Virus record (IMG/VR): IMGVR_UViG_3300025128_000327
Location: 1 to 24,164 of that record
From: a virus
Length of the DNA: 24,164 nt
Reading direction: 5' to 3' (one strand)
A model generated the notes under the pieces. The model saw only the letters and a program-made list of their open reading frames with translations. It was not told where the DNA came from and did not search any database. Position numbers and translations under genes: made by a program. Below are positions 1 through 659 of the stretch, piece by piece; the stretch's first letter is position 1, and the number at the start of each line of letters is the position of its first letter.

Positions 1-342
1 GCAAAAGCAGAAATACAGAAAAAATCAGGCGGGGCTGGATCTACGGGCTCTGATCTTGAGAACTTTTTACATCTTGAGAAATTAAAACAAGCTGAGATTG
101 AGCTTAAAGATATGTTGATTTATCAAGGACGAGCAAATCTATACACTGATTTTTTGAGGTTCCAAGCAGAGGCCAAGCGCAATCGTGATGAGGCGTTGGA
201 AGCACAGAAGAAAGCAAGGGTGGCAAGACAAAAGAAAAACGCTGATATCGTTAAGTCTGTGGTCATTGTATTTATGTGTTTGTTGGGATTGGGTGCGGTC
301 GGTGGTTTTGTATATTGGCTCTCTACTCTGAGGGCAGTATGA
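1..342 (+). CDS. 5'-truncated coiled-coil protein with C-terminal membrane anchor
   Basis: The frame is open from base 1 to the TGA at 340-342, so the gene begins before the window; 113 residues are visible. An internal ATG at 112 exists, but the codons before it continue the same charged helical pattern, so it is unlikely to be the true start. The visible part is Lys/Glu/Ala-rich and probably a coiled coil. A single hydrophobic segment (VIVFMCLLGLGAVGGFVYWL, visible residues about 88-107) and a very short tail follow. That layout suggests a tail-anchored protein with its helix in the cytoplasm. No family is recognised. It precedes a run of small membrane proteins ending in a holin, so a role in lysis or envelope interaction is possible but inferred. 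The next gene starts inside its stop codon (ATGA). Confidence 0.75.
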   Translation, partial: AKAEIQKKSGGAGSTGSDLENFLHLEKLKQAEIELKDMLIYQGRANLYTDFLRFQAEAKRNRDEALEAQKKARVARQKKNADIVKSVVIVFMCLLGLGAVGGFVYWLSTLRAV

Positions 343-659
343 GTGAATTGAAAAAATATGACACAAATGAAAACGGCATTATCGATCCGCATGAGCTTGC
401 TGTTCTTGAGTTGGAAGATCGAAGGCTTAAAATTGCTGATGATAATTCGCAAAGGGATGCAATCAGAAAAATGGCGTGGTTTGCGCTGGCTGGTCTATTG
501 TTGTATCCCAGTGGTATTTTTATATGTAGCTTTGTTGGACTTGATAAAGCGGCTGAACTCATTGCTGACATCGCGGGGACGTATTTTATAGCCGTGTCTG
601 CGTTAGTGGCATCGTTCTTTGGTGCATCGGCGTATCAAGCGAAGAAGGAAGCTAGGTGA
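339..659 (+). CDS. Small two-TM membrane protein with an N-terminal EF-hand loop
   Basis: 106 residues from the ATG at 339, which overlaps the previous stop as ATGA; an in-frame start further upstream (276) would lie wholly inside the previous gene and is rejected. Residues 8-19 (DTNENGIIDPHE) fit the 12-position EF-hand calcium loop at every key site: D1, N3, N5, G6, I8, D9 and E12. A charged helix follows, then two hydrophobic segments at about 45-67 and 78-99 and a basic C-terminus (KKEAR). EF-hands usually work in pairs; only one is seen here, so it would need to dimerise or bind weakly. Its place among small membrane genes just before the holin suggests a lysis or membrane role. Calcium-responsive behaviour is inference from the loop alone. 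Confidence 0.8.
   Translation: MSELKKYDTNENGIIDPHELAVLELEDRRLKIADDNSQRDAIRKMAWFALAGLLLYPSGIFICSFVGLDKAAELIADIAGTYFIAVSALVASFFGASAYQAKKEAR

Follow-up and report, generated by a model that had tools for sequence, protein, structure and literature searches.

A conserved EF-type loop at the N-terminus of a predicted two-helix membrane protein in marine phages: a candidate holin-type lysis protein

The stretch of DNA analysed here, called the window, is the entire virus record IMGVR_UViG_3300025128_000327 (24,164 bases), and it is a fragment, because open frames run off both its ends. Near its start, a plus-strand open reading frame at 339-659 (ATG at 339, stop at 657-659) encodes a protein of 106 amino acids, here the EF protein, with an N-terminal EF-type loop and two predicted transmembrane (TM) segments. 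The loop is the 12-residue calcium-type sequence DTNENGIIDPHE (residues 8-19; 360-395), recognised by pattern match and by conservation. Hydropathy places hydrophobic segments at residues 48-66 (480-536) and 78-96 (570-626). The first, predicted TM1, lies in an AlphaFold2 helix that joins it to the exit helix of the loop; the second, predicted TM2 from hydropathy, AlphaFold2 and charge counts, is followed by a basic C-terminus. An earlier note had described a canonical calcium loop at residues 8-19 followed by two TM segments, and patterns, hydropathy and the structural model all agree with that description.

The ATG of the EF gene overlaps the stop of the gene upstream (339-342), and the genes downstream run to 1419 with overlaps or zero gap, so that the block to 1419 reads as one operon, with all its genes on the plus strand. 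It opens with the C-terminal part of a charged coil-TM protein with one C-terminal TM segment (1-342; hydropathy; phrog_32327, E=3.4e-4). After the EF gene come two cassette members with hydrophobic N-termini by hydropathy, a 68-residue protein with a GTG start (660-866) and a 61-residue protein (863-1048) for which a PHROG search returned no match. The last gene encodes a 124-residue membrane protein in the holin slot (1045-1419), a candidate holin by position and TM content. After the cassette lies a plus-strand gene for a GroES-like co-chaperonin (1622-2050; Cpn10, 6.5e-12). The two tandem small proteins each carry two cysteines, the second in a CIP motif, and look like distant paralogues; proteins of 61-68 residues resembling them recur in related cassettes. 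The coil-TM protein is a frequent upstream partner of the EF gene in the window's clade, and the corresponding neighbour in the freshwater phage DC31 matches phrog_32327 at 1.3e-10. Roseobacter phage CRP-345 has a coil-TM-like protein far from its EF gene. In two relatives (L018 and L020) a lysozyme gene that the window lacks separates the holin-slot gene from a 66-residue gene preceding the GroES gene, and reference endolysins and spanins used as queries detected no relatives in the 24 kb of the window.

Relatives of the EF protein are abundant in viral metagenomes. Scanning IMG/VR with four family members as queries, one scan each, returned 439, at least 591, 52 and at least 594 relatives, in sets that may overlap, and a further 19 loci lie in bacterial or archaeal assembly contigs, nearly all titled as a MAG or bin. 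Phage records yielded relatives in 10 of 50,697: Roseobacter phages CRP-345, CRP-207 and CRP-810, four Melnitz-type methylophages, two records of Pelagibacter phage HTVC008M, and the freshwater Limnohabitans phage DC31. The earlier note's view that such proteins are uncommon thus holds for isolates but not for viral metagenomes. The CRP-345 and CRP-207 records are from seawater, and the hosts of all these phages except Limnohabitans belong to marine groups. Beyond the loop, PHROG, Pfam and NCBIfam matches to the family are marginal. A full-text literature search, whose coverage takes in few subscription journals, returned no title on an EF-hand holin or on this protein family, the titles given for EF-hands together with phage holins being mainly about endolysins or phage genomes, and the accessible portions of PMC5889276, PMC11288001, PMC9004378 and PMC9038755 do not mention an EF-loop protein. 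The TP-84 authors report having sought an EF-hand signature in structural proteins and found none (PMC5889276).

Residues 8-19 satisfy the strict pattern D-x-[DNS]-x-[DNS]-G-x-[ILV]-x3-[DE] and also a 12-residue EF pattern of the PROSITE kind, and they are the sole match to either pattern among the six-frame stretches of at least 50 residues in the window. The strict pattern arises in only 58 of 200,000 shuffles of the 106-residue protein, and it occurs once apart from the relatives in 413,673 residues of six-frame sequence from the first-scan loci. Conservation of the loop in homologues had been set beforehand as a test, and every scorable relative keeps it. The first set retained it in 56/56 distinct relatives with a start codon (start present in 81 of 85 loci). 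A profile search of 316 loci then gave a match in each, of which 309 span the loop region and 222 are distinct; 220 of these 222 keep the loop, and the two that do not are L043, with a broken reading frame, and a protein with an undetermined residue at loop position 1.

The pattern of variation within the loop is equally restricted. Positions 1, 6 and 12 are invariant across 225 aligned sequences. Among distinct relatives, N and D are the sole residues at positions 3 and 5, position 8 is restricted to V, I or L, position 9 is D, S or T with a single G, and position 12 is Glu in all 220 keepers. Glu at this position of an EF loop favours calcium over magnesium. The loop codons vary synonymously (GAT/GAC, GGN, GAA/GAG; 257 distinct DNA rows), and mean weighted column entropy in the 225 sequences is 0.54 bits at the six key loop positions versus 1.75 bits over the rest of residues 1-40. 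Together, the conservation, the synonymous codons and the low entropy point to purifying selection on a metal loop, and the strictly conserved ligand pattern suggests that the loop binds calcium.

Comparison with known EF-hands supports this reading in part. The loop shares the length, the ligands at positions 1, 3, 5, 9 and 12, Gly6 and the hydrophobic position 8 of EF-hand loops (PF00036, PF13202, PF13405; calmodulin). Searched against the PDB, the family profile finds calmodulin-type EF-hands with E from 1.6e-5, and the best 60 of 338 rows are all named calmodulins or other calcium-binding proteins. The Pfam EF-hand models score the window protein at 13.6-14.7 bits, under their curated cut-offs of 25-25.9 (EF-hand_1, 13.6 against 25.4), which is what a chance resemblance without metal binding would have in its favour. 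Against chance stand the invariance of the ligand positions and the behaviour of EF-hand_1 across the family alignment, where it matches 28 of 29 members at E up to 0.1 (best 4.2e-4). Moreover, a query made of the TM part alone finds no loop-less relative among the 50,697 phage records, only the same nine records as the whole protein; the loop is present in all five of the nine that were checked (L081-L085), the set leaving out three Melnitz records and the second HTVC008M record. The corresponding HTVC008M query returns the same nine records but adds little, because at most 62% of it is covered. With the near-complete conservation and the rarity among shuffles also counted, a chance loop is rejected as scarcely credible.

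AlphaFold2 models indicate how the loop is joined to the membrane domain. The window protein (mean pLDDT 83.8, pTM 0.48, 47-row alignment) is modelled with a one-turn helix at residues 4-7, an unbroken helix at 17-65 that includes TM1, and a third helix at 69-105. In an HTVC008M-like relative, L110 (mean pLDDT 78.8, 26 rows), the entering helix is absent and the exit helix, 24-71, again continues into TM1. As modelled, the motif is of the 'F-hand' form rather than a full EF-hand helix-loop-helix. Unlike ordinary EF-hands, the phage protein has one loop per chain, as do the aligned relatives, an entering helix that the two models reduce to one turn or omit, and a predicted junction to a membrane hairpin; a single loop without a full entering helix may bind only weakly. 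With no break between exit helix and TM1 in the model, metal binding could act mechanically on the membrane domain. At E up to 0.001, a Foldseek search of BFVD returned a single match, the unnamed A0A516M8G9 (84 residues, 48% identity), and the remaining matches look like the noise expected of a helical hairpin. In one relative (L005, 5874-6263), a small protein encoded a few genes downstream of the EF protein has a further EF-like loop, DLTGDGKVTQAD, at its start, so loops of this calcium type, one at a time, may be a recurrent feature of marine phage proteins.

Charge counts favour a hairpin with both ends in the cytosol. Over 225 sequences, in stretches of unequal length, mean K+R is 5.1 before TM1, 0.7 in the hairpin and 2.8 after TM2; it is higher before TM1 than in the hairpin in 225/225 sequences and higher after TM2 than in the hairpin in 216/225. 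The stretch before TM1 is acidic too (mean D+E 4.7). With both ends predicted inside, the loop would read cytosolic calcium. The earlier note had raised sensing of calcium in the marine surroundings, and this is disfavoured, because the K+R counts put the loop in the cytosol and the freshwater Limnohabitans phage keeps it. The same two observations weigh against a related explanation, in which the loop is a constitutive structural calcium staple that senses nothing, as it might be if the N-terminus faced calcium-rich seawater or periplasm, although the unequal lengths of the stretches compared qualify the charge argument. A single loop with an exit helix does resemble structural calcium loops such as those of dockerins, and the named hosts are marine apart from Limnohabitans; we nevertheless consider a staple unlikely. 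The dockerin or DxDxDG 'F-hand' loops share the EF-type loop with an exit helix only, and they differ in belonging to an enzyme-docking duplicate, where the phage protein is membrane-bound and single-copy.

Genomic context was scored on the same strand within 3 kb, at loci flanked on each side by at least 2 kb. Of the four viral scans, three contributed their best 80 loci each and the CRP-810 scan all 52, a selection in which close relatives are over-represented, so dereplicated counts are given alongside. Lysis labels came from HMMs grown from reference neighbours; Pfam was used to check the references for lysozyme, M15, GH108, GH19 and GTA-holin, of which the GH19 one fell below its cut-off, and two other holin-slot kinds, whose tested members had no Pfam match, were counted as holin by position only. 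Four loci (L021, L056, L058 and L104) were omitted from the first neighbour table, their EF gene having been missed by the gene caller. On this basis an endolysin lies nearby in 23/35 window-scan loci (among the best 80), 32/32 CRP-810-scan loci, 3/6 phage records and 1/8 genome loci, and in 0/39 HTVC008M-scan and 2/49 CRP-207-scan loci (each among the best 80). Counting an endolysin, spanin or holin-slot gene gives 28/35, 32/32, 3/6, 1/8, 0/39 and 7/49 for the same sets, with the same best-80 limits. Dereplication at 80% identity leaves an endolysin nearby in 12 of 44 lineages and any lysis-type gene in 17 of 44.

Mapped on a tree built from 54 dereplicated proteins, the wider 'lysis' label requires at least seven changes (bootstrap 6-8) against 17.7 in shuffles; seven of the lysis labels (L276, L286, L310, L284, L289, L322 and L081) were set by hand, and short-flank rows were kept if their label was positive, which favours positive labels. 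The window's clade has support 95/87 and carries the wider label in 16/16 rows. Six of these rows, the window's own included, are labelled solely through a positional holin-slot gene, and a stricter recount without the positional kinds finds an endolysin within 3 kb in 10 of 16 rows, or 14 of 16 once members at 80% identity are counted. The link to lysis in the earlier note is supported for the window's clade and not for the T4-like relatives, which have few lysis genes nearby (any such gene in 0/39 HTVC008M-scan and 7/49 CRP-207-scan loci). The neighbouring endolysins differ in kind (phage lysozyme PF00959, peptidase M15 PF13539, GH108, and a GH19-like kind below cut-off), so the enzyme changes between cassettes that all retain the EF protein. 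DC31 forms a long branch.

Individual cassettes show how closely the EF gene may be packed with lysis genes. In CRP-345 it is followed by a u-spanin-like lipoprotein with a C-terminal TM segment (phrog_1804, E=1.7e-4) and then an endolysin. None of the 81 CDS names of this phage contains 'holin', and besides the EF protein only two of the 81 have two hydrophobic segments: the spanin-like lipoprotein and gp02, a protein of 56 residues encoded some 49 kb away from the EF gene in the coordinates of the linear record. Also far from the EF gene, and about 4 kb from gp02, lies a second gene named as a 'cell wall hydrolase', gp15, so gp02 and gp15 could form a second lysis pair. The order in DC31 is coil-TM protein, EF protein, Rz-like protein (phrog_2466, 3.9e-7) and L-alanyl-D-glutamate peptidase. 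Neither phage has a holin annotation near the EF gene, and such cassettes, with no clear second holin, give the strongest hint that the EF protein is the holin. In L276 the EF gene is immediately preceded by an overlapping Rz/Rz1-like pair (PHROGs 739 and 812). L284 and L289 share the upstream order endolysin (phrog_181 at 1e-72 in L289), two-TM protein (phrog_1544), Rz-like spanin, TM protein and EF protein; phrog_1544 is also weakly matched by 5 of 29 EF-family members. The 'putative lysozyme' label in CRP-207 (L084, 3292-3873) proved unsupported, the protein having a hydrophobic N-terminus and weak matches to families other than lysozyme.

The holin-slot neighbour gives a more guarded picture. 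The 124-residue window protein matches phrog_9646, of unknown function, at 3.4e-26 and the holin family phrog_3427 at only E=0.021; Pfam searches found no holin family and NCBIfam gave no match. Most neighbour lists in the window's clade include another membrane protein in this slot, and one kind is GTA_holin_3TM (L057, E=9.4e-24; L004, phrog_3427 at 1.4e-28). A common origin of the three slot kinds was considered and rejected: profile comparison with hhalign links the window kind neither to the GTA kind (probability 0.3 of 100) nor to the third (0.6), and the third has a weak partial match to the GTA kind (probability 40, E=3e-4). The earlier note had placed the EF protein next to a holin; a membrane protein does occupy the slot by position and hydropathy, and its match to a holin family is not convincing. 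Calling it a holin is a positional argument, because the window's kind is not detectably related to GTA_holin_3TM. Pfam, PHROG and NCBIfam searches likewise gave no convincing match of the EF protein itself to a named holin family, the best being Phage_holin_3_6 (E=0.24 for the window's EF protein; best 0.023, in 2 of 29 members).

The T4-like relatives place the gene elsewhere. In HTVC008M and Melnitz it lies between a 'baseplate hub assembly' gene, presumably of the T4 gp51 type, and a long gene annotated in HTVC008M as putative tail tape measure. A 'baseplate hub' cluster gene occurs within 1.5 kb upstream in 64/72 HTVC008M-scan loci and 22/66 CRP-207-scan loci (each among the best 80). This supports the chief rival, a membrane protein of virion assembly or DNA ejection that carries the same loop, for instance an inner-membrane protein of baseplate hub assembly, with lysis adjacency in small phages reflecting late-gene clustering; the coil-TM proteins, frequent neighbours in several contexts, fit it as well. 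We regard it as rather improbable, given that an endolysin is near in 14 of the 16 lineages of the window's clade (in the row or in members at 80% identity), that the EF gene is packed against spanin or endolysin genes in DC31, CRP-345 and L276, and that the hairpin of two helices indicated by hydropathy and the model is like that of small holins. In the linear HTVC008M record the annotated endolysins lie about 125 kb away from the EF gene, and none of the 198 features is named a holin. For Melnitz, the authors propose a curli pore as pinholin analogue (PMC9004378). The EF protein is an alternative candidate holin in both phages, where its location fits tail assembly just as well. A role in superinfection exclusion or another form of host takeover is a further explanation: small two-TM exclusion proteins exist (T4 Imm), and 16 of the 54 tree lineages have neither lysis nor T4-tail context. 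The close packing with late lysis or tail genes wherever the context can be named makes this explanation very improbable.

Taken together, these observations lead us to propose that the EF protein is a holin-type membrane protein of the lysis module, acting as the holin, a close partner or a regulator, with a cytosolic calcium loop, a reading to which we give a probability of about 45%. A role in lysis of some kind is slightly favoured, and if it has one, calcium as the trigger is a prediction that we hold tentatively. In the proposed mechanism, the two TM helices would form a hairpin with both ends in the cytosol, and the N-terminal loop would bind calcium, with single loops pairing between protomers. 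Free cytosolic calcium would be low in the living host, so that the loop would stay mostly empty while the protein accumulates. If the inner membrane leaked, or calcium export failed late in infection, calcium would enter and fill the loops, and the filled loops would stabilise the exit helix and the packing of neighbouring protomers. An all-or-none collapse would follow, after which endolysin and spanin could act.

The proposed protein can be set beside known lysis systems. Like class II holins or pinholins, of which phage 21 S is an example, it has about 100 residues and two TM segments, both ends are predicted inside, and its gene is packed with endolysin and spanin genes in several phages. 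Unlike them, it has no detectable family match, carries a predicted cytosolic metal loop, and often shares its cassette with a further membrane protein that occupies the holin slot. Calcium is also linked to phage lysis in calcium-dependent CHAP endolysins such as LysGH15, where the metal sits on the enzyme rather than, as predicted here, on a membrane protein.

What sets off a holin is an old and still open question in the study of phage lysis. Where one helix connects a strictly conserved calcium loop to a holin-like hairpin, as modelled here, the idea of calcium as a trigger becomes directly testable. If the protein were a calcium-gated holin, a breach of the inner membrane would be self-amplifying, and there would be a candidate holin for T4-like pelagiphages, among them HTVC008M, in whose record no holin is named. 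The same candidate would stand for Melnitz beside the curli-pore proposal of its authors (PMC9004378). It is a more doubtful prediction that a family of calcium-gated holins serves as a lysis clock in abundant marine phages, firing on the entry of calcium into the cytosol. Overall, the finding suggests that calcium may help control how or when such marine phages open their hosts.
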